Shown: positions 9,558-49,920 of the stretch, in pieces
Position numbering within the stretch: position 1 is the stretch's first letter
Layout: the number at the start of each line of letters is the position of its first letter
Assembly (NCBI RefSeq): GCF_025628895.1
Contig: NZ_JAOTJC010000002.1
Location: 124,001 to 188,000 of the forward strand
Length of the DNA: 64,000 nucleotides
Origin: Alteromonas salexigens
GTDB taxonomy: Bacteria > Pseudomonadota > Gammaproteobacteria > Enterobacterales > Alteromonadaceae
Direction of reading: 5' to 3'
Program-made: the position numbers and the translations under genes
The notes under the pieces: generated by a model
What the model was told of the DNA's origin: nothing
Database searches by the model: none
What the model saw: only the letters and a program-made list of their open reading frames with translations

Positions 9558-9692
9558 GTAATTAGCACCCTGTTGCAATGGTATGAACGACTCCTGAAAG
9601 CAAAGAATATGCGTAATACTGTGAATAAACAAGAAAAATGCGCTGGCTGGCAACTAGACTTTCGGACAAAACTTGACACGGGTTGGTAATAC

Positions 9693-9710
9693 ATTTAATA
9701 AAACTGTCAC
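9693..9710 (+). promoter_or_regulatory. Pho-box-like element upstream of phoB
   Basis: ATTTAATAAAACTGTCAC: the second half CTGTCAC matches the PhoB half-site CTGTCAT in 6 of 7, the first half ATTTAAT in 4 of 7, with an AAAA spacer, giving the 11-bp repeat of a Pho box. A TAATAAT sequence about 10 bases downstream (9720-9726) could be the -10. It lies about 50 bases before the phoB start. It closely resembles the element at 18682. Positive autoregulation of phoB is expected from other bacteria; that is an inference here. Confidence 0.6.
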
Positions 9711-9758
9711 ACAGCAGATTAATAATAACGGCGTTTTAATATGACCAGGAAAAAAACT

Positions 9759-10448
9759 ATGTCCCGAACGGTCTTGTTGGTAGAAGACGAAGCGCCGATC
9801 CGTGAAATGCTGAAATTTGTACTGGAGCAGTCGGGGTTCGATACTGTTGAAGCCGAAGACTACGACATTGCAATGGATAAAATTTGCGAGCCGTACCCAG
9901 ATCTCATTCTGCTTGACTGGATGTTGCCAGGCGGCAGCGGCGTACAGTTAGCGAAAAGTCTCAAACAACATGAGTTTACCCGCGATATTCCGGTCATAAT
10001 GCTTACGGCCCGGGGTGAAGAAGAAGATAAGATACGGGGACTGGACGCGGGCGCGGACGATTACATCACCAAGCCTTTCTCGCCGAAAGAGCTGGTGGCG
10101 CGGATTAAAGCGGTCATGCGCCGGGTCACACCCACCTCTAATGAGGTACCCATTGAATTTAATGGTTTAAAGCTGGAGCCCATTTCACACCGGGTTGAGG
10201 CCAATGATGAACCTATTGATATGGGGCCGACAGAGTTTAAGCTGCTGCACTTTTTTATGACGCACCCGGAGCGTGTATACAGTCGCGAACTGCTGCTGGA
10301 CAACGTGTGGGGCACCAATGTGTATGTTGAAGACCGCACCGTGGATGTGCATATCCGCCGGTTGCGCAAGGCCATTGCCAAGCATGGTCATGATGCTATG
10401 ATCCAAACAGTACGCGGCGCCGGTTATCGCTTCTCCACCAAACCCTAA
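9759..10448 (+). CDS. phoB: Phosphate regulon response regulator PhoB
   Basis: OmpR-family transcription factor that activates genes of phosphate starvation when phosphorylated by PhoR. The ATG at 9759 gives 229 residues, the same as E. coli PhoB, and has AGGA 11 bases upstream; the frame also opens at 9741, but that start has no ribosome site. Receiver domain 1-120 with acidic pair E9/D10, phosphorylation site D53 in LLDWMLPG, and K in [14 protein letters not shown]; winged-helix domain about 130-227 with [17 protein letters not shown]. Followed by phoR after 78 bases. Confidence 0.96.
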
Positions 10449-10457
10449 CATCAGGGG

Positions 10458-10494
10458 CGGCCTGAGCGAACAGCACGGACAGGCCGTTTTCTTT
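10458..10494 (+). terminator. Hairpin with T-rich tail between phoB and phoR
   Basis: CGGCCTG (10458-10464) pairs with CAGGCCG (10480-10486) across a 15-base loop and is followed by TTTTCTTT. It looks like a weak or partial intrinsic terminator and would reduce phoR and downstream transcription relative to phoB. The loop is larger than usual, so strength is uncertain. Confidence 0.55.
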
Positions 10495-10526
10495 CATAGT
10501 TACCGACGAACAGGCAATCAGGCATT

Positions 10527-11831
10527 ATGTATTATCCGTTCTCATGGTTGAGAAGCCTTCTCCACTTGGCGGTATACCTTGTCGCGTTCGCTCTGATTGG
10601 TTTGCTGGCAGACGATATGCTGGTCGCTGTGGCTCTCGGCGCTACCCTGCTGCTAATTTTCAACTACTGGCAACTCTACAAGCTCAACCGCTGGTTGTGG
10701 CATAGCAGAAAAATCTCCCCGCCTACGGTGAGCGGTGTGTGGGAGCATATCTATGAAGGGATTTATTACCTGCAAAGGCGCAACCGAAACAAACGCAAGG
10801 AACTCGGTGAGCTGGTGAAACGCTTCCGGGAGGGCTCGGAAGCGTTACCGGATGCTGCGGTGGTGGTCGACGCCAAGGCCTGTATTATATGGTGTAACCG
10901 GTTGGCGCGGTTAGAGCTGGGTTTGAAGTGGCCTGCAGATGCCGGTCGTCGTTTAGATAATCTGTTGCGCCACCCTGATTTTATTGAGTATTTTCACACC
11001 GGTGATTATCACTATCCTATTGAGATCCCATCGCCAACCAACCCTAATAAAACTTTTGAATACCGGATTATGCCTTATGGTGAGGAACACTTGCTGGTGG
11101 TGGCCCGGGACGTGACGCGGGTATCGCAGTTAGAGGAAATGCGTAAAGACTTCGTGGCCAACGTGTCCCACGAATTGCGCACTCCCCTTACCGTTATTAA
11201 CGGGTACCTGGAAATGCTGCCGGCTGCCGATGACAACCCGTTTATGCAAAAGGCGATGACCGAAATGACATCGCAAACCCAGCGTATGCAGAACCTGATT
11301 GAAGATTTGCTGATATTGTCTCGTATAGAAGCCAGCTCAGAACGTATCTACGAGAATGTGGTAAACATGCCGGCAATTCTTGCTCAGATAGAGCGTGAGG
11401 CACTGTCACTCAACAAAGATAAACATCATAAAATTGAATTTCATGTAGATCCCAGCCTGAAAGTGTATGGCGTGGAAACGGAGTTACGCAGTGCCTGCTC
11501 AAACCTGGTATTTAACGCCATTCATTACACTCCCCCCGGCGGGCATATTCAGGTGCACTGGAAACAGGACGCTCACAAGGTGAAATTTGCCGTACAGGAT
11601 AACGGCGACGGTATTGCCCCTCCACATATAAACCGGCTGACTGAGCGTTTTTATCGTGTTGATAAGGCCCGCTCCAGGAAAACCGGCGGCTCCGGGCTGG
11701 GTTTGTCTATTGTTAAGCACGTGCTGAATCATCATAACTCGCAGTTGGAGATACATAGCGTGGTAGGTGAGGGCAGTGTGTTCTCATTTACGTTGACCAA
11801 TGACATGGTTGCTGAGCGGTCTGCATCATGA
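10527..11831 (+). CDS. phoR: Phosphate regulon sensor kinase PhoR
   Basis: 434-residue inner-membrane histidine kinase. Two adjacent N-terminal membrane helices (about 9-27 and 31-47), no sizeable periplasmic domain, a PAS domain (about 100-200; GSEALPDAAVVVDAKACIIWCN), a dimerisation domain with the phosphoacceptor H215 in FVANVSHELRTPLTV, and an ATPase domain with NLVFNAIHYTPPGG, DNGDGIAPPHI and GSGLGLSIVKHVL. The architecture is that of PhoR, which senses phosphate status through the Pst transporter and PhoU. Its stop overlaps the next start (ATGA), coupling it to the PstS-like gene. Confidence 0.95.
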   Translation: MYYPFSWLRSLLHLAVYLVAFALIGLLADDMLVAVALGATLLLIFNYWQLYKLNRWLWHSRKISPPTVSGVWEHIYEGIYYLQRRNRNKRKELGELVKRFREGSEALPDAAVVVDAKACIIWCNRLARLELGLKWPADAGRRLDNLLRHPDFIEYFHTGDYHYPIEIPSPTNPNKTFEYRIMPYGEEHLLVVARDVTRVSQLEEMRKDFVANVSHELRTPLTVINGYLEMLPAADDNPFMQKAMTEMTSQTQRMQNLIEDLLILSRIEASSERIYENVVNMPAILAQIEREALSLNKDKHHKIEFHVDPSLKVYGVETELRSACSNLVFNAIHYTPPGGHIQVHWKQDAHKVKFAVQDNGDGIAPPHINRLTERFYRVDKARSRKTGGSGLGLSIVKHVLNHHNSQLEIHSVVGEGSVFSFTLTNDMVAERSAS

Positions 11832-12784
11832 TTCGACGACTACTGTGCTTGCTGATGTGGTGTGCCATCTCGATGGATGCGCTTAGCGCCACTGACGAAA
11901 TCCCCGACTATGAGCGCCAGCCAGGCGTGGCGGGCAAAATTACCTCGGTGGGGTCGGACACGCTGGCCAACCTTATGACTTTCTGGTCTCAGGAGTTCAG
12001 GGAGCTTTATCCGCAGGTTAAGTTTCAGATCCAGGCCTCCGGCTCCTCTACCGCACCCCCGGCACTAACCGAAGGCACCGCTACCATCGGCCCCATGAGC
12101 CGGGAACTGAAACCAAGTGAACGACGTGATTTTATTAATGCTCACGGCTATCCGCCGCTGGTGTTACGGGTAGCCATGGATGCCATTGCCATATTTGTTG
12201 AGCGACACAACCCGTTAACCGGACTGACCCAACAGCAGGTGGACGCCATCTTCTCAGCTACCCAGTTTTGCGGCGCCCCTGCTCCCATCACCCGCTGGTC
12301 GCAGCTGAATGTGTATGGGGACAACTTTACGGCGCCCATACGCTTATTCGGTCGGAATTCGGTATCAGGCACCTACGGCCTGTTCAAAATTGATGGCCTG
12401 TGTGACGGTGACTTTCGCAAGAACGTTAACGAACAACCCGGCTCTGCCTCTGTGGTGTTATCGGTGGGGTCGAGCCGCGGCGCGATTGGTTATGCCGCCT
12501 ATGGCTATAAAACAGCCGGCGTGCGGGCGTTGCCAATAGGCGAGACCGCAGAGACCCTGATCCCGTTAACCTCGCAAACAGTGCGTAATGAAACTTACCC
12601 TTTTGCCCGTTATCTGTACCTGGTAATTAATAAAAAGCCGGGTGAACCATTACCTACGCTTGAGCGGGAGTTCCTTCGGTTTGTGCTGTCTAAGGAAGGA
12701 CAGCGACAAGTTGAACGCGATGGCTACTTTCCTATCCGGGCAGACATTTTGCAGCGGCAGCGCCGCATTATCCAAAGTGACTAA
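11828..12784 (+). CDS. PstS-like periplasmic phosphate-binding protein
   Basis: 318 residues with a signal peptide (about 1-21, ending DALSA). The mature protein has PBP-like phosphate-binding features: SVGSDTLANLM near 39-49, QASGSSTAPPALTEG near 69-83, GPMSREL near 88-94, and RNSVSGTYGLF near 176-186, the segments that contact phosphate in PstS-like proteins. It overlaps phoR by four bases, so it is co-transcribed with phoBR. No pstC, pstA, pstB or phoU gene is in the window. It may deliver phosphate to a Pst permease encoded elsewhere, or act in signalling or with the downstream outer-membrane system. Confidence 0.85.
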   Translation: MIRRLLCLLMWCAISMDALSATDEIPDYERQPGVAGKITSVGSDTLANLMTFWSQEFRELYPQVKFQIQASGSSTAPPALTEGTATIGPMSRELKPSERRDFINAHGYPPLVLRVAMDAIAIFVERHNPLTGLTQQQVDAIFSATQFCGAPAPITRWSQLNVYGDNFTAPIRLFGRNSVSGTYGLFKIDGLCDGDFRKNVNEQPGSASVVLSVGSSRGAIGYAAYGYKTAGVRALPIGETAETLIPLTSQTVRNETYPFARYLYLVINKKPGEPLPTLEREFLRFVLSKEGQRQVERDGYFPIRADILQRQRRIIQSD

Positions 12785-12945
12785 GACAGTCACTTCATAA
12801 TCGCTGCGGCTAATGTTGCCAGACAATTGGCGAGGTGGGTGTCCTGCAAACAGCCTCTTATCACAACTCACTCGCCCGGTTGTGTGGCATCCGACCGGCA
12901 GTCAACTGAACATAGCAATGGTCGCATTCCACCGACACCTACATT

Positions 12946-12963
12946 GTGAAAGTTTTGTGACAG
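12946..12963 (-). promoter_or_regulatory. Pho-box-like element, minus strand
   Basis: Read on the minus strand this is CTGTCACAAAACTTTCAC: two direct half-sites, CTGTCAC (6 of 7 to CTGTCAT) and CTTTCAC (5 of 7), with an AAAA spacer, so an 11-bp period. It is the best Pho-box match in the window by half-site score. It lies about 90 bases before the lipoprotein start but points the other way; no minus-strand gene is immediately downstream. Confidence 0.6.
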
Positions 12964-12970
12964 GTTCACA

Positions 12971-12988
12971 GTGTAACATTTATGTCAT
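12971..12988 (+). promoter_or_regulatory. Pho-box-like element, plus strand
   Basis: GTGTAACATTTATGTCAT: half-sites GTGTAAC (4 of 7) and ATGTCAT (6 of 7 to CTGTCAT) with an ATTT spacer, 11 bp apart. It lies 63 bases before the lipoprotein ATG, a suitable place to activate it. Together with the opposed element 8 bases away it forms a cluster of four possible PhoB half-sites. Confidence 0.55.
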
Positions 12989-13050
12989 TTAACGAAGGTA
13001 AAGTGCCAGCGTTTTCAAAATCCATAAAAAATCTGCACTTGGAGAAACGA

Positions 13051-15825
13051 ATGGAACTTAAGCACTTATTTCAGGCTTCGGCGATTGCAACCGCACTCGT
13101 ACTAGCTGGTTGTGGTGGTGATATCAATATCAGCGAAGGCGATATTGATAACAGTGTGACCAATAATAACGGTGGCAATGAAACTCCCACCAACCCCCCG
13201 GCTGAAAATGATGGACGTCCGGGAGATGCCAGTGCTTTTCTTAGTGGGCAGGTTTCAGAGGCATTCGGTACTGACGTTGAAGTGCGGGTATTATCAGGCC
13301 GTCTTACCGACGCTGACGCGGATGCCAGCGGCAACATCGTACTGACTAACGACACAGTATGGGCGCTTGAAGGTCCGGTATTTATTGGTAACGATAAAGC
13401 TGACAGTGTCACGCTGGAAATTGAAGAAGGTGCTATCGTATTCGGTCGTACCGGTGCAGATTATCTGGTAATCAGCCGCGACTCTGCTATTGAAGCGACG
13501 GGTACCGCAGAAAATCCGGTCATCATGACGTCTTACAATGATGTTATCGGTGATGAAGTTGGCGCCGGCCAATGGGGAGGGTTGGTTGTATTAGGTAACG
13601 CACCATCAACCAAATGTCCTCAAGACGGCTCAGACTGTGCACTTCAGGTTGAGGGTGCTGAAGAAGGTGCCGTATTCGGCGGAACGGACGAGACCGATAG
13701 CTCAGGTATCCTGAACTACGTGGTCGTGAAATATGCAGGTTTTGAAATCGCCCCCGACAACGAGCTGAACGGCATCACTTTCGGTGGTGTGGGTTCAGGA
13801 ACAGAAGTGGATTACGTGCAAGTTCACGGCAACGCGGACGACGGCGTTGAATTCTTTGGTGGAACCGTAAACGCGAAACACTTGGTTTTGACTGCTAACC
13901 AGGACGATTCAGTAGACTGGGACAACGGTTATAAAGGCAAGCTGCAGTACGTATATGTACAGCATGCCTCTGACAACTCTGATGCCAACCGTGGTATCGA
14001 AGGTGACGGCGACGGCGGTGACGGCCTGGAGTTTTCACAACCTATGGTTGCGAACATGACGGTTGTGGGTAACAACTTCGACACCGCGGACGCTGACTCT
14101 GAAGGCCTGTTACTACGCGATCAGACAGGCGCTCATCTGATGAACTTCCTTATCACTGGCCCTGAAAGCATGGGTGAGTGTTTAGAAATGGATACGGACG
14201 ACACGGTACAGGCAAACCTGTCTGACGGCGACCTGACCATGACTTACTCTGTTATCTCTTGTAGCGAACCTTTCAACACGCCTGACGGTGCAGTTGACCT
14301 GGAGACTTGGTTCACTGGTCAGGAAGGTAACCAGCTAATCGCCTTTGAAGATCGTGCTAATCTGGGTCTGAACATCGACGGTTCACTGACATCAGAAAGC
14401 ATGTTGCTGACAGCAGGCGGCGATGCAGCGATGCTAGATACTTTCTTTGAAACTAATACCTTCGTGGGTGCGGTGGGCGAAACTGACTGGCGTCAGGGTT
14501 GGGCCTTTGGTTTTGGCGGCGGTAACATCGAGCTGGTTGAAACCACATCAGGCTGCCCGGCTGGGACTACTAACATCGCGTCAGTAGACGGTTCTACAAC
14601 AACGTGTGAAATCTCAGGCACTATCACTGCTGACCTGACACTGACTGCAGGCAACCTGTATGCCCTGTCTGGTGCGGTATTCGTAGGTGGTGACAAAACT
14701 GACAGCGCGGTTTTGACGATTGAGCCCGGTGTGACGGTTTTCGGTAACTCAGGAAATGACTACCTGGTAGTCAGCCGTGACTCGCAAATCATGGCTAACG
14801 GAACAGCTGCTGACCCAATCACATTCACTTCGCGTGACCATGTTATTGGCGGCCTGGAAGCGGGGACAGCCGGCCAGTGGGGCGGCATGATTATTCTGGG
14901 TAATGGTGAATCAACCAAATGTCCGCAGGATGGCACCGACTGTGCGTTACAGGTAGAAGGCGCAGCCGAAGGGGCGGTATTCGGCGGTACTGATAATGCC
15001 GATAATTCCGGCGTGTTGCGCTATGTTCGTGTTATGCACGGCGGCTTCGAAATAGCGCCTGATAACGAGCTCAATGGCATCACCTTTGGCGGTGTAGGTT
15101 CAGGTACCACGGTGGAATACGTGCAGGTGCACAAAAATGCCGATGACGGTGTAGAGTTCTTTGGCGGTGCAGTTAACGCAAAATACCTGACTTTCACTGG
15201 TGTTCAGGATGACTCTGTAGACTGGGATAACGGTTATAAGGGTAAATTACAGTTTGTACTGGTTAAGCATGCGGATGATAACTCGGATGCCAACCGCGCC
15301 ATCGAAGGTGACGGCGACGGCGGTGATGGACTGGCATTCTCCAACCCCACCGTGGCTAACATGACAGTGATCGGCAATAGCTTTGATACTGCGAACGCGG
15401 ATTCAGAAGGCATTCTGCTGCGAGACCAGACCAACGCACAGCTGTACAACATCCTGGTAACCGGCCCTGCTGGCATGGGTGAGTGCTTTGAAGTTGACCT
15501 GAGTGACGGTGACACCACTGCGCTGGGTAATATGGACGGCACCAATACGCCGCAAATGGTCATGCAGTCATCAGTTCTGGCCTGTGCGGAAAATATCAAA
15601 AACTCTGGCGATTTTGACCAACAAGCCTGGTTTACTGCGCAGGACAACAACAGCCTGCTGGACAACACTGCAACAGTGCTGGATGGTATCTACACAGTAG
15701 ACACCACGACAGCGACAGATGTTTCTGCTCTGGACAGCTTCTTTACGTCAGTCGATTTTATCGGCGCGGTGAAAGATGCTGATAATGACTGGACAGCAGA
15801 ATGGACTGTTGCACTGGATAACTAA
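13051..15825 (+). CDS. Large lipoprotein with two tandem beta-helix-like repeats
   Basis: 924 residues from ATG 13051 (GGAG six bases upstream), beginning MELKHLFQ and carrying a lipobox LAGC at about residue 22. A Ser/Asn/Thr/Pro-rich linker leads to two homologous copies of about 390 residues (roughly 93-485 and 520-915). Shared blocks include DYLV(I/V)SRDS, AGQWGG, STKCPQDG, EIAPDNELNGITFGGVGSGT, NADDGVEFFGG, DDSVDWDNGYKGKLQ and EGDGDGGDGL. Regular strand-turn patterns suggest a right-handed beta helix; the Asp/Gly-rich loops may bind calcium. Each copy has a CPQDGxDC cysteine pair. The next gene is a TonB-dependent receptor and the upstream region has Pho-box-like sites, so a surface ligand-capture role under phosphate limitation is plausible but unproven. 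Confidence 0.85.
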   Translation: MELKHLFQASAIATALVLAGCGGDINISEGDIDNSVTNNNGGNETPTNPPAENDGRPGDASAFLSGQVSEAFGTDVEVRVLSGRLTDADADASGNIVLTNDTVWALEGPVFIGNDKADSVTLEIEEGAIVFGRTGADYLVISRDSAIEATGTAENPVIMTSYNDVIGDEVGAGQWGGLVVLGNAPSTKCPQDGSDCALQVEGAEEGAVFGGTDETDSSGILNYVVVKYAGFEIAPDNELNGITFGGVGSGTEVDYVQVHGNADDGVEFFGGTVNAKHLVLTANQDDSVDWDNGYKGKLQYVYVQHASDNSDANRGIEGDGDGGDGLEFSQPMVANMTVVGNNFDTADADSEGLLLRDQTGAHLMNFLITGPESMGECLEMDTDDTVQANLSDGDLTMTYSVISCSEPFNTPDGAVDLETWFTGQEGNQLIAFEDRANLGLNIDGSLTSESMLLTAGGDAAMLDTFFETNTFVGAVGETDWRQGWAFGFGGGNIELVETTSGCPAGTTNIASVDGSTTTCEISGTITADLTLTAGNLYALSGAVFVGGDKTDSAVLTIEPGVTVFGNSGNDYLVVSRDSQIMANGTAADPITFTSRDHVIGGLEAGTAGQWGGMIILGNGESTKCPQDGTDCALQVEGAAEGAVFGGTDNADNSGVLRYVRVMHGGFEIAPDNELNGITFGGVGSGTTVEYVQVHKNADDGVEFFGGAVNAKYLTFTGVQDDSVDWDNGYKGKLQFVLVKHADDNSDANRAIEGDGDGGDGLAFSNPTVANMTVIGNSFDTANADSEGILLRDQTNAQLYNILVTGPAGMGECFEVDLSDGDTTALGNMDGTNTPQMVMQSSVLACAENIKNSGDFDQQAWFTAQDNNSLLDNTATVLDGIYTVDTTTATDVSALDSFFTSVDFIGAVKDADNDWTAEWTVALDN

Positions 15826-15850
15826 GCAGCCAGTAATTTTGCTGACATGG

Positions 15851-15889
15851 AAGCAAGTACGTGACATTAAGTGGCGTACTTGCTTTTTA
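15851..15889 (+). terminator. Terminator between the lipoprotein and receptor genes
   Basis: An 11-bp perfect stem AAGCAAGTACG (15851-15861) and CGTACTTGCTT (15875-15885) with a 13-base loop is followed by TTTT. It lies directly after the lipoprotein stop and before the TonB-dependent receptor. It may act as a full terminator or as a partial one that sets a lower level for the receptor. Confidence 0.75.
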
Positions 15890-15946
15890 AGTATCAAGCA
15901 CGGGTATTATTCCGTAGCATAAGAATTGCGTACAACGAGGTTAATC

Positions 15947-18595
15947 ATGAACAGACCTGCTAACAGGTTTTTTCTTAAGCCGCTCAGCCTGGCGGTAGTG
16001 GCTGGCCTGCTATCTCCCGCTTCTCCTGCCTTTGCGCAGTCTGACGAAAGTGAAGCCATTGAGGAAGTGGTGGCTACCGGTACCCGGTTGAAGGGAACGG
16101 CGACGGCGGTGATGCAGGAACGTAAAAATCAGGCGTTCGTTGCGGATATCATGGGCGCGGAGCAAATCTCACGTACCGGGGATGGTGACGCAGCGTCTGC
16201 ATTACGCCGGGTCACGGGGCTGACGCTGGTGGATGGCAAATTCATCTATGTACGGGGCCTGGGTGAGCGGTACTCATCCACGCAGCTTAACGGGGCCGTG
16301 GTGCCCAGCCCGGACCCTACCCGTAACGTTATTCCGCTGGATTTGTTTCCTTCAGACATCATTGAAAGTCTGTCAGTACAAAAGTCATTCTCACCGTCAA
16401 TGCCTGCCTCGTTTGGTGGCGGTAATGTCAACATCCGACTGAAATCCATTCCTTCTCAAAAGGTCTTTAACGTCAGTGGCAGCCTGGGCTACAACACTGA
16501 AAGCTCCGGTGACGTGCTGGATTATCCCGGCGGTGGACGGGACTGGTTCGGTGAAGATGACGGCACCCGTGCAGCTCCCGAATCAATCCGGCAGCGCTGG
16601 GAAGACCGCGAGTTTCTGGATAATCTGGAGCCAGAACTTGCCCGGGATTTACTGGGTGACGTTAACCGCGATTATGGTCCAGAGCGTACCAGCGCCGCCC
16701 CTGACATGGGCCTGAATGTAACCTTGGGTAACAGCTTCGATTATGACGAAGACTGGCGCTTTGGCTTTTTAGCCACGGCGGGATACGATGCGCAAACCCG
16801 CGCGACCGAGCAGTATGAGCTTCAGGATCCTGACCGCATTGGTGATGACGTGATCCTGGTACGTTTCTTTGATGACATTCAAGGCACCGAGCGCACGGTA
16901 CAGTGGTCTTCACTGCTGACATTGGGCATCGACTATAACCGCCAGCATCAAATTGACTACAGCATCATTGCGCTTAACGATACCCGCGATGAGATCCGCG
17001 AGAAATTCGGTAATACTGAAAACCTCAACCAGGCGGAAGGCCTGCGTATCCGCGATATCGATATTGAATATGAAGAGCGCACCTTATACACCAATCAGCT
17101 GAAAGGCATGCACACCTTTCCGGACTTGAACTTCTTAGGGTTCGACTGGCGCTGGTCAGAAGGTCGCTCCATCCGGAATGCTCCGGGTAATATGGAAGCG
17201 CGCTTTGTACTGGCTGACGAAAATCAGGATGACGTGTTCGATGTAGCCAATGAGGGCTTCCTGATTGATGCGCAAACCGCTGCGCGTTATTCGTTTCAGA
17301 ACCTGCACGACCGTTTAGAAAATTACGGCTACAACTTCTCGTTACCGTTAACGCTGGGTAAGTGGGAGACCGAATACAAATTCGGCGCCGATTTCGTGTC
17401 GAAAGTGCGTACCGCAGAATCCCGCCGTTTCGACGTCAATACACTGGGCTTTGCGAACCGTGAGTTTCTTCGTGGCAGTGTGTTTGGCGATATCTTAAGC
17501 GACGAAAACCTGGCCAGCGCGGAGCTGAGTAACCGTGCCGTACTGCGTGATACTACGGTCGCCGGCGATGACTATGTTGCCGGTCAGAAAGTGGATGCGT
17601 ATTACGTTGAGGCTGACTTTTTTTATGACAATAAGTGGCGCTTCACCGGTGGGGTACGCTGGGAGGACTTCCGTCAGGTAGTGGCGCCTTTCGACCCGCG
17701 TACCAATCAGTTTGACCTGAATGACGACGCGGATCGTGCACAGCTGGCATTCCAGGAAGATGATTTTTATCCTGCGCTGGCAGTGACGTACTTCTTAAAA
17801 GACGACATGCAGCTTCGTGCCAGTATCGGTCAGACTGTGGTTCGCCCCGACTTACGTGAAGTGTCTTCATCGACGTATATCGATCCGCTGACTGACTTCC
17901 CTATTGCGGGCACACCCGGTCTGGAAACTACCGATATCATTAACTACGACCTGCGTTGGGAATGGTATCGCGAAGCGGGTAATAACCTGTCTGTCGGTTT
18001 CTTCTACAAGGACATGGAAGCGCCCATAGAGTCTGTACAGTCACCGGCACAGGATGGTCCGCCGCTGATTCGTATTGCTAACGCCGAGACTGGAGAGGTG
18101 TACGGCGTGGAGCTGGAATTCCTGCAAGGGTTAGACTTTATCGGCAACGGCATCTGGGACAACCTGTTCACCACCGGTAACATCACGGTGAGTGACTCTG
18201 AAATTGTGTTGGATCGCCAGAATATTGTTGATCAAACCGGGGTTTCTGCTGCTATCACTAACACCACCCGGCGTATGACCGGCCACTCGGAATACGTGGT
18301 GAACTTTCAGTTTGGCTTCGATTCTGACAACGGCGAGCACTCTGCTTCGGTAGTGTATAACGTGTTTGGCGAGCGAATTCTGATCCCCGGTATCGACGGA
18401 TTTGATGACAGCTTCGAAGAGCCGTTCCACTCCCTGGATATGGTTTACAAGTACTACCCGGACTTTAATACCACTGTCACATTTAAAGTGCAGAATGTGC
18501 TTAATGAGGACAAGGAAATTGTGTTCGAGGACACCTTGCTGCGCTCTGAAACACGGGGCACCAGCTTCAGTCTGTCTTACAAATACGATTTTTAA
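15947..18595 (+). CDS. TonB-dependent outer-membrane receptor
   Basis: 882 residues from ATG 15947 (ACGAGG seven bases upstream). Signal peptide to about residue 31 (SPAFAQ). A TonB-box-like IEEVVATGTRL follows at about 38-48, then a plug domain (about 60-180) with SALRRVTGLTLVDGKFIYVRGLGERYS, and a long beta-barrel. The last residues SFSLSYKYDF end in Phe, the outer-membrane assembly signal. No N-terminal STN domain, so no sign of surface signalling to an anti-sigma factor. Its neighbours (phoBR, PstS-like protein, beta-helix lipoprotein, TonB operon) suggest a phosphorus-containing substrate; this is inference. Confidence 0.92.
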   Translation: MNRPANRFFLKPLSLAVVAGLLSPASPAFAQSDESEAIEEVVATGTRLKGTATAVMQERKNQAFVADIMGAEQISRTGDGDAASALRRVTGLTLVDGKFIYVRGLGERYSSTQLNGAVVPSPDPTRNVIPLDLFPSDIIESLSVQKSFSPSMPASFGGGNVNIRLKSIPSQKVFNVSGSLGYNTESSGDVLDYPGGGRDWFGEDDGTRAAPESIRQRWEDREFLDNLEPELARDLLGDVNRDYGPERTSAAPDMGLNVTLGNSFDYDEDWRFGFLATAGYDAQTRATEQYELQDPDRIGDDVILVRFFDDIQGTERTVQWSSLLTLGIDYNRQHQIDYSIIALNDTRDEIREKFGNTENLNQAEGLRIRDIDIEYEERTLYTNQLKGMHTFPDLNFLGFDWRWSEGRSIRNAPGNMEARFVLADENQDDVFDVANEGFLIDAQTAARYSFQNLHDRLENYGYNFSLPLTLGKWETEYKFGADFVSKVRTAESRRFDVNTLGFANREFLRGSVFGDILSDENLASAELSNRAVLRDTTVAGDDYVAGQKVDAYYVEADFFYDNKWRFTGGVRWEDFRQVVAPFDPRTNQFDLNDDADRAQLAFQEDDFYPALAVTYFLKDDMQLRASIGQTVVRPDLREVSSSTYIDPLTDFPIAGTPGLETTDIINYDLRWEWYREAGNNLSVGFFYKDMEAPIESVQSPAQDGPPLIRIANAETGEVYGVELEFLQGLDFIGNGIWDNLFTTGNITVSDSEIVLDRQNIVDQTGVSAAITNTTRRMTGHSEYVVNFQFGFDSDNGEHSASVVYNVFGERILIPGIDGFDDSFEEPFHSLDMVYKYYPDFNTTVTFKVQNVLNEDKEIVFEDTLLRSETRGTSFSLSYKYDF

Positions 18596-18612
18596 CGTAT
18601 ACAGTAAGTGTG

Positions 18613-18641
18613 AAAAGGGCCGCAAATTGCGGCCCTTTTTT
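18613..18641 (+). terminator. Terminator of the receptor gene
   Basis: GGGCCGCAA (18617-18625) pairs with TTGCGGCCC (18627-18635), flanked by AAAA and TTTTTT. A strong, bidirectional-looking intrinsic terminator 20 bases after the receptor stop. Confidence 0.9.
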
Positions 18642-18681
18642 GTTTATGCTCGCTGCGAATAGCGCCACATATATGACGATT

Positions 18682-18715
18682 GTGTAATAAAACTGTCACA
18701 GTAAACGCCTATTCT
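18682..18715 (+). promoter_or_regulatory. Pho-box promoter of the TonB operon
   Basis: GTGTAATAAAACTGTCAC (18682-18699): half-sites GTGTAAT (5 of 7 to CTGTCAT) and CTGTCAC (6 of 7), AAAA spacer, 11-bp period. Ten bases downstream is a -10-like TATTCT at 18710-18715, the spacing expected when PhoB replaces the -35 contact. It shares TAATAAAACTGTCAC with the element before phoB. It lies 61 bases before the DUF3450 start. Confidence 0.68.
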
Positions 18716-18775
18716 ACGCGCAGAATTTTCAGGGTCGGGTAATACCGATTTTTTTAAACAATAAGGTTTGAATGT

Positions 18776-19534
18776 ATGAAGCTTTTCAACTCGTTGCTGA
18801 TGGCCGGGGCGCTGCTCACCGCTCCAGCGATGGCACAAGACGATGAAGTCTTAAAACCCGTTGTCGATGAAGCTGCCAAGATTAATGAGTCTGCGGCTGA
18901 GTCACAGGAAAAAATCAATGATATTACCGACCAGATTGGCTCGAAACTGCAGCAGTTCAAAACACTGAACAAAGAGATTGAAGGACTGGAAGTGTACAAC
19001 GCCCAGTTGCAGCGCCAAATTGACAACCAGCAGCAGGAAATGGTCGACCTGAATGCTGCCATTGACGAAGTATCAGTAGTAGAACGTCAGATTACGCCGT
19101 TAATGTTGCGCATGATCACCGGTCTGGAACAGTTCGTTGAACTGGACGTGCCGTTCCTGCCAGAAGAGCGCGCAAACCGCATTGCCGACTTAAAAGCGAT
19201 GATGGACCGCGCCGATGTGGCTACCTCCGAAAAATTCCGCCGTGTAATGGAAGCTTACCAGGTTGAGATGGAATACGGTCGCACCATGGAAGCCTACAGC
19301 GGCATCCATTCCATCGACGGCCAGGAGCGCGACGTTGAATTCCTGCGCCTGGGTCGTACGGCACTTATTTATCAAACTCGCGATGCCAGTGAACAGGGTG
19401 TGTGGAACAAGCAAACCCGCCAGTGGGAAAAGCTGGATAGCAGCTACCGCACCCAAATCACCAAGGGTTTACGCATGGCCAAAAAGCAACTGGCCCCCGA
19501 TATGCTAATGCTGCCCGTAGCAATCACAGACTAA
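18776..19534 (+). CDS. DUF3450 periplasmic coiled-coil protein
   Basis: 252 residues with a signal peptide (about 1-20, PAMAQ). Residues about 25-100 are heptad-rich coiled coil (KINESAAESQEKINDITDQIG and following); the C-terminal half holds ELDVPFLPEERANRIADLK and the GRTALIYQTRD segment typical of DUF3450. In Alteromonadales and Vibrio this family is regularly the first gene of TonB2-type operons; its precise role in the motor is not established, and a periplasmic accessory function is likely. AAGG precedes the ATG. The next gene starts about 13 bases after the stop. Confidence 0.88.
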   Translation: MKLFNSLLMAGALLTAPAMAQDDEVLKPVVDEAAKINESAAESQEKINDITDQIGSKLQQFKTLNKEIEGLEVYNAQLQRQIDNQQQEMVDLNAAIDEVSVVERQITPLMLRMITGLEQFVELDVPFLPEERANRIADLKAMMDRADVATSEKFRRVMEAYQVEMEYGRTMEAYSGIHSIDGQERDVEFLRLGRTALIYQTRDASEQGVWNKQTRQWEKLDSSYRTQITKGLRMAKKQLAPDMLMLPVAITD

Positions 19535-19547
19535 GAGGTTGATGAGA

Positions 19548-20912
19548 ATGTTGAACACTGTAAAACGAATCGCTGTTGGTCTGGCTGCTCTGAGCATCAG
19601 CGTAGGCGCTATGGCGCAAGACGACCGTGCAATGGACCTGGACGCCCTGCTGAAACAGCTTGAAGAAGGCCAGTTTGCACAGTCTGAACAAAACCAGGCC
19701 CGTGAGCGGGAATTCATGCAGCAGCGCGCCGAGCAGGATCGCCTGCTGGAAGAAGCGCGACAGCGTCGCAATGCGCTACTGGCACAGTCTGAAAAACTGG
19801 AAACCCAGTTTGAAGAAAATGAATTTAAACTGGCAGATCTCAATGGCGCGTTAGACAACCGCCTGGGTTCACTGAAAGAGCTGTTTGGTGTGCTGCAGCA
19901 AGTGGCGGGTGACACCAAAAACAAATTCCACAACTCAATGATTTCGGCGCAGATCCCTGGTCGTTCGCAATTCCTTGATGAAATGGCACAGGAAATGGGT
20001 TCAAGCTCGAAACTGGCGTCTATCGAAGAAATCGAGCGTGTGTGGTTTGAAATGCAGCGTGAGATGACCGAGTCTGGCAAGGTCACCAAGTTCGATACCT
20101 CGGTCGTTGAAGCCGGCGGTGAAAAAGTGAATAAAGAAGTGGTCCGGGTTGGCCCGTTCGCACTGGTCTCTGACGGTAAGTACCTGGATTACAACGGCGC
20201 GACCGGAACGGTATCAGAACTGGTTCGCCAGCCCGCTGACCGTTACATGGACTCTGCGGAAGAGTTGCAGGAGTCTGATGGCAAACTGGTAGAGTTTGGT
20301 ATCGACCCTACTGGCGGTTCAATCCTTGGCTTGCTGGTACAGGCGCCTAATCTGAAAGAGCGTGTAGAGCAGGGCGGTGCCGTAGGTTACATTATCCTGA
20401 TTGTGGGTGCCTTTGGTTTACTGCTGGCCATTGAGCGTCTGATTTCACTGACTATCATTCGCACCAAGGTGAATAAACAGCTGAAGTCGAAGAAGATCAA
20501 GACTAACAACCCGCTTGGCCGCGTGCTTAAAGTGCGCGACAAGTATCCGGATGCTGACACCGAAGCCCTGGAACTGCACCTGACGGAAGCCATTCTGGGT
20601 GAGGTGCCGAAACTGAGCCGCAACCTGACCATCATCAAAATTATCTCGGTGGTAGCACCTCTGATGGGTCTGTTGGGTACGGTAACCGGTATGATTAATA
20701 CCTTCCAGGCGATTACCCTGTTCGGTACCGGTGACCCGAAACTAATGGCGGGTGGTATTTCCACCGCTCTGGTTACCACGGTACTGGGTCTGGTGGTTGC
20801 TATCCCAATGACGCTGCTGTACGCCATGCTGAATACGCGTAGCAAAAACATTGTTTACATCCTTCAGGAGCAGGCATCGGGCGTTATCGCTGAGCGCGCT
20901 GAACGGAGCTAA
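19548..20912 (+). CDS. TtpC-like long ExbB (MotA/TolQ/ExbB family)
   Basis: About 454 residues. Of several clustered starts (TTG 19539, ATG 19542, ATG 19548), the ATG at 19548 has the best spacing (9 bases) from AGAGG. A signal peptide (VGAMAQD) is followed by a long periplasmic region (about 25-275) with an N-terminal coiled coil, then a membrane helix (about 285-305, VGYIILIVGAFGLLLAIERL), a cytoplasmic loop, and two more helices with the MotA/TolQ/ExbB core LMGLLGTVTGMINTFQAI and ISTALVTTVLGLVVAIPMTL. This is the shape of TtpC, which is required with ExbB2, ExbD2 and TonB2 in Vibrio. Two bases separate it from exbB. Confidence 0.88.
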   Translation: MLNTVKRIAVGLAALSISVGAMAQDDRAMDLDALLKQLEEGQFAQSEQNQAREREFMQQRAEQDRLLEEARQRRNALLAQSEKLETQFEENEFKLADLNGALDNRLGSLKELFGVLQQVAGDTKNKFHNSMISAQIPGRSQFLDEMAQEMGSSSKLASIEEIERVWFEMQREMTESGKVTKFDTSVVEAGGEKVNKEVVRVGPFALVSDGKYLDYNGATGTVSELVRQPADRYMDSAEELQESDGKLVEFGIDPTGGSILGLLVQAPNLKERVEQGGAVGYIILIVGAFGLLLAIERLISLTIIRTKVNKQLKSKKIKTNNPLGRVLKVRDKYPDADTEALELHLTEAILGEVPKLSRNLTIIKIISVVAPLMGLLGTVTGMINTFQAITLFGTGDPKLMAGGISTALVTTVLGLVVAIPMTLLYAMLNTRSKNIVYILQEQASGVIAERAERS

Positions 20913-20914
20913 TC

Positions 20915-21436
20915 ATGATTATCGAGTTTCTGGAAGCAATTCGCGATTTCACAGAGTCTGGCGGTCAGGTTCTCCTGGCCATCGGAGTGCTGATATTCGT
21001 TATGTGGCTTTTGATCCTCGAGCGTGCAATGTACCTGCTTATCTGGCACAAAAAGGCCAAGAAGAGCGCTATCAAAACGTGGAAAGCCCGCGACGATCGC
21101 TCTTCCTGGTTCGCCGAACAGGTACGTCAGAAAACAATTTCACAACTCACTATGCGCCTTAATGGCAGCATTCCTATCATTCAGGCTCTGGTGGCGCTTT
21201 GTCCGCTGCTGGGGTTGATGGGAACGGTGACCGGCATGATCGAAGTCTTTGACGTGATGGCCATATCCGGTTCCGGCAATGCCCGCTCGATGGCGTCAGG
21301 GGTGTCGAAAGCGACTATTCCGACCATGGCCGGCATGGTTGGCGCGTTGTCCGGCGTGTTTGCCGCAACCTGGCTGAACCGCATGGTGAAATCTGAACGC
21401 ACGCATCTCGAGGATGCATTGATTATTCAACGTTAA
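20915..21436 (+). CDS. exbB: Biopolymer transporter ExbB (TonB2-type)
   Basis: 173-residue inner-membrane subunit of the proton-driven TonB motor. Three membrane helices: about 17-38 (VLLAIGVLIFVMWLLILERAMY), about 87-108 and about 130-150. The family core PLLGLMGTVTGMIEVFDVMA and VSKATIPTMAGMVGALSGVFA are present. It is shorter than classical ExbB (about 240 residues), as usual for TonB2-system ExbB. It works with the TtpC-like, ExbD and TonB products on either side. Confidence 0.93.
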   Translation: MIIEFLEAIRDFTESGGQVLLAIGVLIFVMWLLILERAMYLLIWHKKAKKSAIKTWKARDDRSSWFAEQVRQKTISQLTMRLNGSIPIIQALVALCPLLGLMGTVTGMIEVFDVMAISGSGNARSMASGVSKATIPTMAGMVGALSGVFAATWLNRMVKSERTHLEDALIIQR

Positions 21437-21468
21437 TGCCCTGACGGCATTAAGGTAAGGACATTATT

Positions 21469-21876
21469 ATGAAGCAGCATTTTCAAAACCTGGTTGATGA
21501 AGAAGAAGCAAACATCGACATGACGCCCATGTTGGACGTGGTGTTTATCATGCTGATCTTTTTCATTGTGACCGCGTCGTTCGTAAAAGAAGCCGGCATT
21601 GATGTAAACCGCCCGGAAGCAGCCACTGCGGTGAAAAAGGATCGCGCCAATATCCTGATTGCTATCTCTGATAAAGGCGAAATCTGGATCAATAAGCGTC
21701 AGATTGACGTGCGTGCGGTGCAGGCCAACATCGAACGTCTGCATGCAGAGAACCCGCAGGGTACGGTAGTGATTCAGGCAGATAAAAAAGCCACCACAGA
21801 AACCCTGATTAAGGTGATGGACGCGTCACGCGCCGCCGGGGTTTACGATGTCTCAATTGCAGCGCAAGAGCCATAA
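21469..21876 (+). CDS. exbD: Biopolymer transporter ExbD
   Basis: 135 residues: a short cytoplasmic N-terminus, one membrane helix (about 22-42) and a periplasmic domain. The catalytic proton-carrying aspartate is D23 in IDMTPMLDVVFIMLIFF. The C-terminal domain has VVIQADKKATTETLIKVMDASRAAG, the ExbD/TolR fold. AAGGTAAGG lies upstream. The stop is three bases before tonB. Confidence 0.95.
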   Translation: MKQHFQNLVDEEEANIDMTPMLDVVFIMLIFFIVTASFVKEAGIDVNRPEAATAVKKDRANILIAISDKGEIWINKRQIDVRAVQANIERLHAENPQGTVVIQADKKATTETLIKVMDASRAAGVYDVSIAAQEP

Positions 21877-21879
21877 GCC

Positions 21880-22488
21880 ATGCCACGTTATCTGATTGCG
21901 TTTTTAGCTTCACTTGCCATTACGCTTGGGTTGTTCTTCCTGATGTCATCACTCATCAAAATGGGTGGCAGTGCACTGACGGAACCGCCTAAGGGAAGTG
22001 TGCTGGATTTTGTCAGGGTGAAGCAGGAAGAGCAGGTCGAGAAAAAAGACCGCAAGCCGAAGAAGCCGCCCAAGCCGAAAGAGCCGCCGCCGCCCATGGA
22101 GCAGCCACAAATGGACTCTCCCACACCGAACGCGGATAGCGCCGGGATGGACTTCGCTGCCGATGTAGGTGATGACATTTCACTGGAAGGCGGACTGGCA
22201 CTGGACTCTGGGGACGGTGAATACCTGCCCATTGTGAAAGTGTCGCCGGTGTATCCTCGCCGTGCGTTACAACGCGGTATTGAGGGCTTCGTTATCGTCG
22301 AGTTTACGGTGACGAAACAAGGCGCGGTACGCGACCCTGTTGTGGTCGAGGCAGATCCCGAAGGTATCTTTGAACAGGCCGCCATTGATGCTGCCACCAA
22401 GTTCAAATACAAGCCACGGGTTGTCAATGGCGAAGCCACAGAGGTGTCCGGGGTTCAGAACCGCATCACCTTCCAGATTGACGGGTAA
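21880..22488 (+). CDS. tonB: Energy transducer TonB (TonB2-type)
   Basis: 202 residues. One N-terminal membrane anchor (about 5-26, with Ser and Phe facing the ExbBD ring), a Pro/Lys-rich spacer (about 52-75, KPKKPPKPKEPPPP), an acidic stretch, and a compact C-terminal domain (about 115-202) with SPVYPRRALQRGIEGFVIV and KFKYKPRVVNGEATEV. The spacer is much shorter than in E. coli TonB1, as in TonB2 proteins. Couples proton motive force to TonB-dependent receptors, probably including the one at 15947. Confidence 0.94.
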   Translation: MPRYLIAFLASLAITLGLFFLMSSLIKMGGSALTEPPKGSVLDFVRVKQEEQVEKKDRKPKKPPKPKEPPPPMEQPQMDSPTPNADSAGMDFAADVGDDISLEGGLALDSGDGEYLPIVKVSPVYPRRALQRGIEGFVIVEFTVTKQGAVRDPVVVEADPEGIFEQAAIDAATKFKYKPRVVNGEATEVSGVQNRITFQIDG

Positions 22489-22493
22489 GTGCT

Positions 22494-23831
22494 ATGAATA
22501 ATGCAATAGTTAAAACAATCCATAGTGCGCTGGTTTGTTCAGCTTTATTGCTGACCGCCACACCCACTATGTTCGTAGCAAATCACGCGGTGGCCCAAGC
22601 GCAGCCAGAGCAGGAGCTAAAAGCCAGCGACAAGCCAACCCGGCGCGTACCCACGCTGCGTTCAACGGTATATGAGCAGCTTTCCCGGGCGCAAACCGCG
22701 GCCGACGAAGACGGCGACGTAGAAGAAGCGCTGTCCATCCTAAAAGAGGTGGAGAGCAAAGACTATTCAATGAATAGTTATGAACGCGCCATGATGCATA
22801 ACTTCTACGGGTTCATTTACTACAACGATGAACAGTATGAAAAAGCGCTGGCGGAATTTGAACAGGTAGTTGAACAGCAGCCCATTCCCCGTAAATTCGA
22901 GATGACCACGTTGTTCTCACTGGCGCAACTGCATCTGATGCAGGGTAACTACGACAAAACCATTGAGTTTATTGAGCGTTGGGAAGCGTTGCACGAAGGG
23001 GCTATTCCGGCTAAAAACAAAGTGCTTAAAGCTCAGGCGTATTATCAGAACAAGCAATACGAGAAAGCCGCAGAATGGATTGAGCGCGCAATTGCTGCAC
23101 ATGAAGCCGAGGGCATGCTCCCGGATGAGGGCTGGCTGATTCTGCAACGGGCGGTGTATTACGAGCTTAAGCAGCCTGAAAAGGTAAAGGATGTGCTGGT
23201 GAAGCTGGTAAAGCTGTATGACGAGCCGAAGTACTGGACTCAGCTTGCCGGAATGTACGGTGAGTTAGGCGAAGAACGTACGCAGCTGGCCATTATGGAA
23301 GCCGCATATCAGCAGGGGTATGTAGAAAGTGCTGCAGATATCTTTAATCTGGCACAGCTGTATTACTACCACCGGGCGCCTTACAAGGGAGCATTGCTGA
23401 TGCAGCAGGCAATTGACGAGGGTGTACTGGAAGCCAACCTGCGCAATTTGAAATTCCTGGGGCAAAGCTGGACGCTGGCCAAAGAGCAGGACAAAGCCAT
23501 TCCGGTGATGATGCAGGCTGCAGAACTGGCCGATAACGGCGAGCTGGATGCTCAGGTTGCGCAGATCCTGCTAAACGAAGAACGGTGGGACGAGGCCATA
23601 GCCGCCGCGGACAGAGCCATCGACAAAGGCGACTTGCGTAACCCGGGACTAGCTTACCTGATTAAGGGCATGGCCCTTTATAATCAGCAGCAGTTCGCAC
23701 GGGCACTGAATGAACTGGCTAAAGCCGAAGAGCACCAGAAAAGCCGTGCCATGGCACAGCAGTGGAAGCAATTTGTGACCAACGAAAAGCAATCAGCTGA
23801 GCGCATGGCTGCAGAACTGGGTGACGGTTAA
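22494..23831 (+). CDS. Periplasmic TPR-repeat protein of the TonB operon
   Basis: 445 residues with a signal peptide (about 1-33, ending AVAQA). The mature protein is a string of helical tetratricopeptide-like repeats, for example residues about 95-130 (AMMHNFYGFIYYNDEQYEKA), 140-175, 185-215 and the C-terminal set ending at 425. TPR proteins often close TonB2-type operons in Vibrio and Alteromonadales and may assist assembly or partner selection; the exact function is not known. Five bases after tonB; a terminator follows. Confidence 0.88.
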   Translation: MNNAIVKTIHSALVCSALLLTATPTMFVANHAVAQAQPEQELKASDKPTRRVPTLRSTVYEQLSRAQTAADEDGDVEEALSILKEVESKDYSMNSYERAMMHNFYGFIYYNDEQYEKALAEFEQVVEQQPIPRKFEMTTLFSLAQLHLMQGNYDKTIEFIERWEALHEGAIPAKNKVLKAQAYYQNKQYEKAAEWIERAIAAHEAEGMLPDEGWLILQRAVYYELKQPEKVKDVLVKLVKLYDEPKYWTQLAGMYGELGEERTQLAIMEAAYQQGYVESAADIFNLAQLYYYHRAPYKGALLMQQAIDEGVLEANLRNLKFLGQSWTLAKEQDKAIPVMMQAAELADNGELDAQVAQILLNEERWDEAIAAADRAIDKGDLRNPGLAYLIKGMALYNQQQFARALNELAKAEEHQKSRAMAQQWKQFVTNEKQSAERMAAELGDG

Positions 23832-49536: not shown

Positions 49537-49920
49537 ATGGCCATTGCCGGAATTGGAACCGATATCATAGAAATAGCCCGGTTAACTGCGAACCTTGAGC
49601 GGACTCCGCGCCTGGCTGCACGTATTCTCACAGCCACAGAAAAAGCGATTTATGACAGTCAGACTGAACCCGCCCGCTACCTGGCTAAACGCTTTGCGGC
49701 CAAGGAAGCGGCGGTGAAGGCATTAGGCACTGGTATCGGCAATGGCATTAGCTGGCAGCATATTGAAATAAGTAACAATGAGCTGGGCGCCCCTAAACTG
49801 ACCTTTACCGGTGCGTTTCAGTCCCGTTGTGAGGCCCTGGGCATATGCCGCAGTTTCTTGTCTATCTCGGATGAACAGCACTACGCGGTAGCCACTGTCG
49901 TACTGGAGACGAGCGAATAA
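49537..49920 (+). CDS. acpS: Holo-[acyl-carrier-protein] synthase AcpS
   Basis: Transfers 4'-phosphopantetheine from CoA to apo-ACP. 127 residues with the family start IAGIGTDIIEIARL (Asp of the Mg site), the central AKRFAAKEAAVKALGTGI motif (Glu/Lys catalytic) and a C-terminal strand HYAVATVVLE. Usual length. Cotranscribed with pdxJ, as in E. coli; rlmD follows one base after the stop. Confidence 0.96.
   Translation: MAIAGIGTDIIEIARLTANLERTPRLAARILTATEKAIYDSQTEPARYLAKRFAAKEAAVKALGTGIGNGISWQHIEISNNELGAPKLTFTGAFQSRCEALGICRSFLSISDEQHYAVATVVLETSE

Follow-up and report, generated by a model that had tools for sequence, protein, structure and literature searches.

In Caulobacter crescentus, the phosphate-starvation lipoprotein ElpS (CC0170) is encoded next to a TonB-dependent receptor, CC0171, in the gene order cc0170-cc0171-gspC; ElpS is reported to be cleaved and released, and its overproduction to raise alkaline phosphatase activity (PMC2996285). 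In Flavobacterium johnsoniae, the loci PUSIII and PUSIV hold the lipoproteins FI and FII together with TonB-dependent transporters, FII lying in the phoBR cluster; the ElpS-related Flavobacterium lipoproteins beside phoBR are reported to be strongly induced by phosphate depletion, and FI to be the most abundant exoprotein under this condition (PMC8115612). Here we describe a locus of Alteromonas salexigens, found at positions 9693-23831 of the window (the whole 64-kb stretch that was analysed, from a genome of 3.55 Mb labelled G000), where phoB, phoR, pstS, a two-repeat lipoprotein, a TonB-dependent receptor and six TonB2-type motor genes stand in a row. We consider it probable that this is a PhoB-controlled locus for capture and uptake at the outer membrane, with an exchangeable lipoprotein-receptor cassette. 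Phosphate is often very scarce for marine heterotrophs, and the entry into the cell of phosphorus sources that are excluded by porins is an open question. The computation covered gene content, Pho-box-like elements and the spacing of their -10 hexamers, co-occurrence, relatedness to the elpS type, the predicted fold, the replacement of cassettes and the approximate position of the junctions. Among the literature matches listed (subscription papers being outside the scope), we found no description of this locus, of a TonB motor with a Pho box or of the cassette exchange.

The original prediction, which was made from the letters of the window, had read the gene order as phoB, phoR, a pstS-like gene, a duplicated lipoprotein, a receptor and a full TonB2-type motor. 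Family matches bear this order out:

9741-10448, plus strand: phoB, phosphate response regulator (TIGR02154, 363 bits, cut-off 296)
10527-11831, plus strand: phoR, phosphate sensor kinase (TIGR02966, 456 bits, cut-off 334; PF11808)
11828-12784, plus strand: pstS (TIGR02136, above cut-off)
13051-15825, plus strand: ElpS-like lipoprotein of 924 amino acids with two beta-helix repeats (lipobox LAGC; isoelectric point 4.05)
15947-18595, plus strand: TonB-dependent receptor of 882 amino acids (PF00593, PF07715; predicted structure)
18776-19534, plus strand: DUF3450 protein of the TtpB type, first motor gene (PF11932, 314 bits)
19539-20912, plus strand: TtpC-type MotA/TolQ/ExbB protein (PF01618)
20915-21436, plus strand: ExbB (PF01618)
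21469-21876, plus strand: ExbD (PF02472)
21880-22488, plus strand: TonB (PF03544)
22494-23831, plus strand: TPR protein in the TtpD position, final gene of the operon (TPR families)

TonB motors power receptors, and in content and order (ttpB(DUF3450)-ttpC-exbB-exbD-tonB-ttpD) the motor of the window is the same as Vibrio TonB2. In Vibrio TonB2, ttpB2 encodes the DUF3450 protein and ttpD2 is the last gene, and both TonB2 and TonB3 share with our locus all six genes and their order, beginning with DUF3450; TonB3 starts with a receptor gene, and transport of iron compounds by it was reportedly not found (PMC6957404). The promoters differ: V. vulnificus TonB2 is reported to have a Fur site, whereas the motor operon of the window has a conserved Pho-box promoter (PMC6957404). 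For the lipoprotein, the automatic list of open reading frames gives a start at 12982, which we judged not likely, and 13051 is preferred.

PhoB activates promoters that bear Pho boxes, and in a promoter of the PhoB regulon the box lies 10 bp upstream of the -10 hexamer, before a transcription unit. We scored 18-mers against the Pho-box consensus, which we take to be CTGTCATAWAWCTGTMAY. The original prediction had named four Pho-box-like elements:

9693-9710, plus strand: element of the phoB promoter, ATTTAATAAAACTGTCAC, 15/18, with the -10 hexamer AATAAT at 9721, 10 bp on
12946-12963, minus strand: second, inverted element of the lipoprotein promoter, CTGTCACAAAACTTTCAC, 16/18 on the minus strand
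12971-12988, plus strand: proximal element of the lipoprotein promoter, GTGTAACATTTATGTCAT, 13/18, with the -10 hexamer TAAAGT at 12999, 10 bp on
18682-18699, plus strand: element of the motor operon, GTGTAATAAAACTGTCAC, 16/18, with the -10 hexamer TATTCT at 18710, 10 bp on

Three of them, at 12946 (16/18), 18682 (16/18) and 9693 (15/18), are the top three 18-mers on both strands of the whole window, but the one at 12971 reaches only 13/18, and the one at 12946 is a reversed box on the minus strand, 25 bp upstream of the proximal box. The predicted -10 hexamer at 18710 is indeed correctly spaced, and the same 10-bp spacing is seen at 9721 and 12999. Since the window holds two further, stray 14/18 matches, at 18463 (within the receptor gene) and at 49641, a lone match of this score is no evidence. 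Exactly two copies of the core 15-mer TAATAAAACTGTCAC exist in the genome, and both are in the window, one before phoB and one before the motor. A genome-wide scan with the E. coli consensus and three mismatches was useless (348 matches compared with 274 for the reversed control), and we replaced it by a comparison across genomes. One 17/18 site, G000:C9:121010-121027, overlaps the start of an opposite-strand gene that by eye looks like a short-chain dehydrogenase; the site is probably due to chance.

Within the genus, a box of at least 14/18 is found before phoB in 36/36 loci, before the lipoprotein gene in 33/33 and before the DUF3450 gene of the motor in 32/32, and in none of the regions upstream of the receptor (0/34), phoR (0/36) and pstS (0/34). 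As a control we used the general TonB2 copy of the DUF3450 gene in 20 of the 35 same-genus genomes that possess it, and no such box precedes it in any of these 20; in two genomes (G000 and G012) this copy was confirmed to head a full six-gene TonB2 operon. Note that all counts include related genomes and are not numbers of independent events. L083 and L084 have been left out of the genus promoter counts; some of the promoter counts also leave out L082, which has a cut lipoprotein gene and lacks phoB, and L097, which lies on a short contig.

The arrangement of the promoters is conserved as well. All 33 lipoprotein promoters of the genus have an element of at least 13/18, a 10-bp spacer and TANNNT, and at the 32 motor promoters the hexamer 10 bp past the box is TATCCT (30 loci), TATTCT (one) or TAAACT (one). 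The original prediction had named loss of the half-sites in orthologous loci as a result that would speak against it; no such loss is seen in the genus, where box, spacer and -10 hexamer are kept at every lipoprotein and motor promoter counted. For phoB, AATAAT follows the best-scoring box by 10 bp in 32/36 loci; in the other four (L086, L087, L090 and L091) the script apparently picked a second box about 20 bp upstream, and scores and alignment indicate that the proximal box is there likewise followed by AATAAT.

The inverted element at the lipoprotein promoter is more variable. If the loci are divided into cassette types A, B and C by the similarity of their receptors and lipoproteins, a counterpart of the 12946 element of at least 13/18 is present in 14/14 loci of type A, 7/9 of type B, 0/9 of type C and in the single locus of G011 (1/1). 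That it is kept in type A and most of type B and gone in type C suggests two promoter designs for the same job. Boxes of 15-17/18 about 250 bp before the lipoprotein gene in several type C loci were rejected as regulatory; the one in L094 lies inside the end of the oxygenase gene. In G011, pstS is followed directly by the motor, which retains its own box beside phoBR, and a divergent lipoprotein-receptor pair (L103) lies elsewhere in the genome with both of its boxes. The boxes thus appear to belong to the pair, and not to the neighbourhood alone.

To look beyond the genus, we took 79 loci of named genomes, from the best 80 matches, and counted boxes of at least 14/18 within 220 bp upstream, with an expectation from shuffles. 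A box is present before the lipoprotein gene in 68/76 loci (2.4 expected), before the DUF3450 gene in 33/40 (1.4) and before phoB in 41/41 (1.0). Genes further inside have hardly any: ttpC 0/39, exbD 0/37, tonB 0/33 and the receptor 3/78. When 11 loci from Alteromonas or near it (nine titled Alteromonas, L136 and L169) are excluded, the counts are 58/66 for the lipoprotein, 23/30 for DUF3450 and 31/31 for phoB, and 0/29, 0/27, 0/23 and 3/67 for ttpC, exbD, tonB and the receptor. Phosphate-starvation regulation of the locus, which the original prediction had proposed, is therefore supported by the conservation of these sequences and by the reported induction of relatives in Caulobacter and Flavobacterium. 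The uptake part of the original prediction, in which receptor and lipoprotein would import a phosphorus source too large for porins with a motor induced only under phosphate stress, is a possibility on which these counts do not bear. Through the conservation of promoters in several genera, a widespread lipoprotein-receptor pair of the ElpS/FI/FII kind would be tied to PhoB, with a motor separate from the general one.

The genes of the locus also occur together. With 60 genomes searched per query, the lipoprotein was found in 36 and the receptor in the identical 36. Among the 36 genomes of the same genus (our own included), 34 have lipoprotein, receptor and dedicated DUF3450 together, while G012 and G015 lack all three and keep phoB, phoR and the general DUF3450 copy. 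Across the genus, identity to the DUF3450 protein of the window is 80-94% for the dedicated copy and 34-45% for the general copy. In G040 and G050, which belong to other families, the pair is present and DUF3450 is of the general type only (36-37%). The row from phoB to the TPR gene is uninterrupted in 30 of the 34 cassette-bearing genomes of the genus, L092 included; in G001 a distance of about 12 kb separates the motor from the rest, contig ends cut the row in G005 and G017, and G011 has the empty site mentioned above. A search of the phage collection gave 3 distant matches.

In the named loci, the receptor follows the lipoprotein within 4 kb downstream in 78/79 cases. The placement of the other genes varies: phoB lies upstream on the same strand in 24 loci and is divergent in 17, and the motor lies downstream in 37 and upstream in 4, so that the link to both recurs across arrangements. 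For example, in Rheinheimera (L177, 5152-18632) the pair stands between divergent phoBR and the genes for a porin, phoU, pstB, pstA and pstC. By eye, we recognised no recurring tell-tale enzyme near the pair in 11 loci from seven other genera, of which L177 was also scanned with Pfam.

What is new here is that the lipoprotein and the receptor are exchanged as one cassette, while the regulator on one side and the motor on the other stay in place. Three receptor types can be distinguished in the genus, with 45-62% identity between types, and phoR and TtpC are up to 98-99% identical between genomes of different cassette type. Among 29 genomes (L071, L082, L092, L097 and L103 left out), there are 52 pairs in which phoR and TtpC are both at least 90% identical; 26 of these agree in type and 26 differ, with receptors that are 46-49% identical in the discordant ones. 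Quick trees, calculated without bootstrap, require 9 changes of type on the flank proteins (31 genomes, L071, L082 and L097 left out) and 2, the minimum possible, on the receptor. Shuffled type labels require a mean of 14.0 changes on the flank tree and as few as 9 in only 2 of 200 shuffles; the types are clustered beyond the shuffles, so that exchange, though repeated, is not free.

The junctions were mapped in two pairs of genomes. Between G024 and G027, the nucleotide identity falls within about 50 bp of the end of pstS and, once the 5' edge of the motor Pho box is reached, is again 98-100%, and G002 and G023 break near the same two places. The motor Pho box at 18682 accordingly lies near the right edge of the exchangeable cassette. 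Inside the receptor, type A and the other types are 85-86% identical in the plug and 42% in the barrel; the part that would meet TonB is kept and the part predicted to face outward changes between types. A gene for a 2OG-Fe(II) oxygenase, which the window does not have, is present in 8/9 loci of type C (the ninth is cut short), 6/9 of type B and 1/14 of type A, the counts being of loci other than that of the window. Plasmid pBGP9 of Alteromonas macleodii (L287, NZ_OX359244.1, 5363-36107) carries the whole locus together with its regulator, in the order rdgC, sensor kinase, phoB, phoR, pstS, oxygenase, a 4071-bp lipoprotein gene, receptor and motor, near a Tn3-family transposase; the plasmid is a possible vehicle for transfer of the locus.

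We give about even chances to the following reading of the exchange: PhoB-PhoR-PstS and the dedicated TonB2 motor would form a fixed socket, into which cassettes of differing cargo specificity, each with its own Pho box, are swapped between strains by recombination in the conserved flanks, that is, at the end of pstS and at the motor Pho box. On the other hand, attack through the receptor by phages or bacteriocins, rather than differing phosphorus substrates, could drive the exchange. Replacement of the whole pair with a conserved plug and a divergent barrel is what this would leave, the pattern being known from exposed receptors under attack, and the same and different types are equally frequent among near-identical flanks. 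We know of no phage or bacteriocin that uses this receptor, however, substrate specialisation predicts the same pattern, and shuffled labels are less clustered on the flank tree than the actual types. Such a drive is a real possibility that falls somewhat short of an even chance; it bears on why the exchange happens and could hold alongside uptake under PhoB control. If a plug-in system of this kind is true, the use of a phosphorus source or the sensitivity to a phage could be swapped in one step, with regulation and energy supply untouched. The pair is exchanged as a unit, and its cargo can be tested with near-identical strains that differ in the cassette and with the two cassette-less species.

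The lipoprotein of the window has the lipobox LAGC at residues 18-21 and two repeats that are 59% identical to each other; its relatives carry one to three fused repeats. The repeat is predicted to fold as a right-handed parallel beta-helix (pectin-lyase-like), with a structure match over most of its length. Sequence searches with the lipoprotein in Pfam, NCBIfam and PDB gave no match, and a Bflower_3 match in L084 was below the cut-off. Among the matches listed, the closest named relative of the repeat is from Alteromonas antoniana, at 94% identity. Homologues that are 33-38% identical (tblastn E 6e-52 to 4e-132) were followed, in 5 of the 22 genomes that we examined (G308, G343, G174, G267 and G272), by a receptor gene and genes for type II secretion, in the elpS order lipoprotein-receptor-gspC-gspD. 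These homologues and their gene order support placing the lipoprotein with ElpS.

The Caulobacter pair is thus alike in its LAGC lipobox, its adjacent receptor and its link to phosphate, and unlike in that ElpS, at about 50 kDa, lies beside type II secretion genes, whereas the window has fused repeats, no adjacent type II secretion and a dedicated TonB motor (PMC2996285). F. johnsoniae, with PUSIII and PUSIV, likewise has an ElpS-related lipoprotein and a receptor next to phoBR; its receptors are of Bacteroidota, and the cited passages name no dedicated TonB motor, cassette exchange or type II secretion neighbours (PMC8115612). The combination of a surface lipoprotein with a TonB-dependent receptor is shared with TbpA/TbpB, entries of which are among the structural matches of the receptor, and with SusCD/PusCD. 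Unlike TbpB and SusD, the lipoprotein of the window is predicted as a parallel beta-helix.

From these observations we infer PhoB binding and induction, exposure of the lipoprotein at the surface, and uptake. When phosphate is exhausted, PhoR and PhoB, whose own promoter has a Pho box, would switch on two more promoters. The first would give the ElpS-type surface lipoprotein, with its one to three beta-helix repeats, and its TonB-dependent receptor; the second would give the six-gene TonB2-type motor, distinct from the general TonB2 copy of the cell. The lipoprotein may then capture, on the cell surface, a polymer or complex that contains phosphorus, and the receptor may pass it through the outer membrane with energy from the dedicated motor. 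Relatives have swapped the whole pair with its Pho box; the plug, which would contact the motor, is kept, and the barrel and the lipoprotein differ.

Several observations weigh against uptake of phosphorus under PhoB control. The half-sites, kept throughout the genus, are kept by most loci of other genera too, but no 14/18 box is found at 8/76 lipoprotein genes and 7/40 DUF3450 genes of the named loci; the lipoproteins concerned include two of Pseudoalteromonas (L149 and L168) that have the motor upstream with a DUF3450 box of 15/18. In 16/79 named loci, neither phoB nor the motor is in the available stretch. The PstS beside phoR is the single TIGR02136 match in the whole genome, and a cluster of pstC, pstA, pstB and phoU without pstS lies about 96 kb off on the same contig (G000:C14:226000-238440; only pstC and the ATPase are family-matched, the rest being assigned from order and sequence); no box of at least 15/18 was found in this stretch. 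The lipoprotein is strongly acidic (146 D+E, 31 K+R) and so ill-suited to bind a polyanion directly, unless cations bridge the two. Phosphatase, nuclease and phytase genes are absent from the cassette, so that nothing names the cargo, and the best structural matches of the receptor are mostly iron and haem receptors. A gspD above cut-off is not beside the lipoprotein in 10 of the 15 genomes that have one. Finally, Caulobacter cc0171 is reported to be expressed, unlike elpS, in rich as well as poor media, and no change of internal phosphate was reported (PMC2996285).

Potentially, the lipoprotein could be shed from the cell to assist phosphatases, the role proposed for ElpS, with a receptor that imports nothing phosphorus-bearing, and the shared regulation would then only coordinate a surface program of starvation. 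In favour of this are the reported release of ElpS after cleavage, the rise in alkaline phosphatase activity on its overproduction, and the rank of FI as top exoprotein of Flavobacterium under phosphate depletion (PMC2996285, PMC8115612). A released helper, however, needs neither the receptor that follows the lipoprotein in nearly all named loci nor the dedicated motor of the genus, and no type II secretion genes adjoin the lipoprotein gene of the window; in our own genome, the gspD above cut-off is on contig C11 and the pair on C14. We regard the helper as unlikely. Equally improbable, in our view, is import through the receptor of a metal, free or complexed (iron, calcium, or zinc for phosphatases), instead of phosphorus, to cover a greater need at low phosphate: the first solved structures among the matches listed are receptors for haem, siderophores, ferric citrate, transferrin and copper (the first PDB match being PhuR, with a Foldseek E of 7.5e-43 for a receptor model with a mean predicted local distance difference test score, pLDDT, of 83.2), the oxygenase gene rides in many loci of types C and B, and the lipoprotein is acidic, but the genes stand in a Pho context in several genera, and a structural match says little given that most solved TonB-dependent receptors are of the iron, haem or metal kind.

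There are a few minor observations on neighbouring genes and on single loci. In most loci of the genus, the divergent neighbour of phoB is a sensor-kinase-like gene (7806-9653 in the window), and its counterpart in the plasmid copy on pBGP9 is annotated as a HAMP sensor kinase. In L092 (G026), the matches to pstS, the receptor gene, exbB and the kinase gene next to them are split in two, as broken genes or assembly errors would give. In L084 (G040, 8926-18739), the receptor and the next gene are duplicated; the second receptor has no plug region, and the gene after the receptor has a weak SdiA-regulated match below the cut-off. Two Pseudoalteromonas loci, L157 (16396-19361) and L165 (14462-18183), encode near the pair a further large protein, secreted or of the outer membrane, together with a lipoprotein in which a GHDHD stretch occurs.

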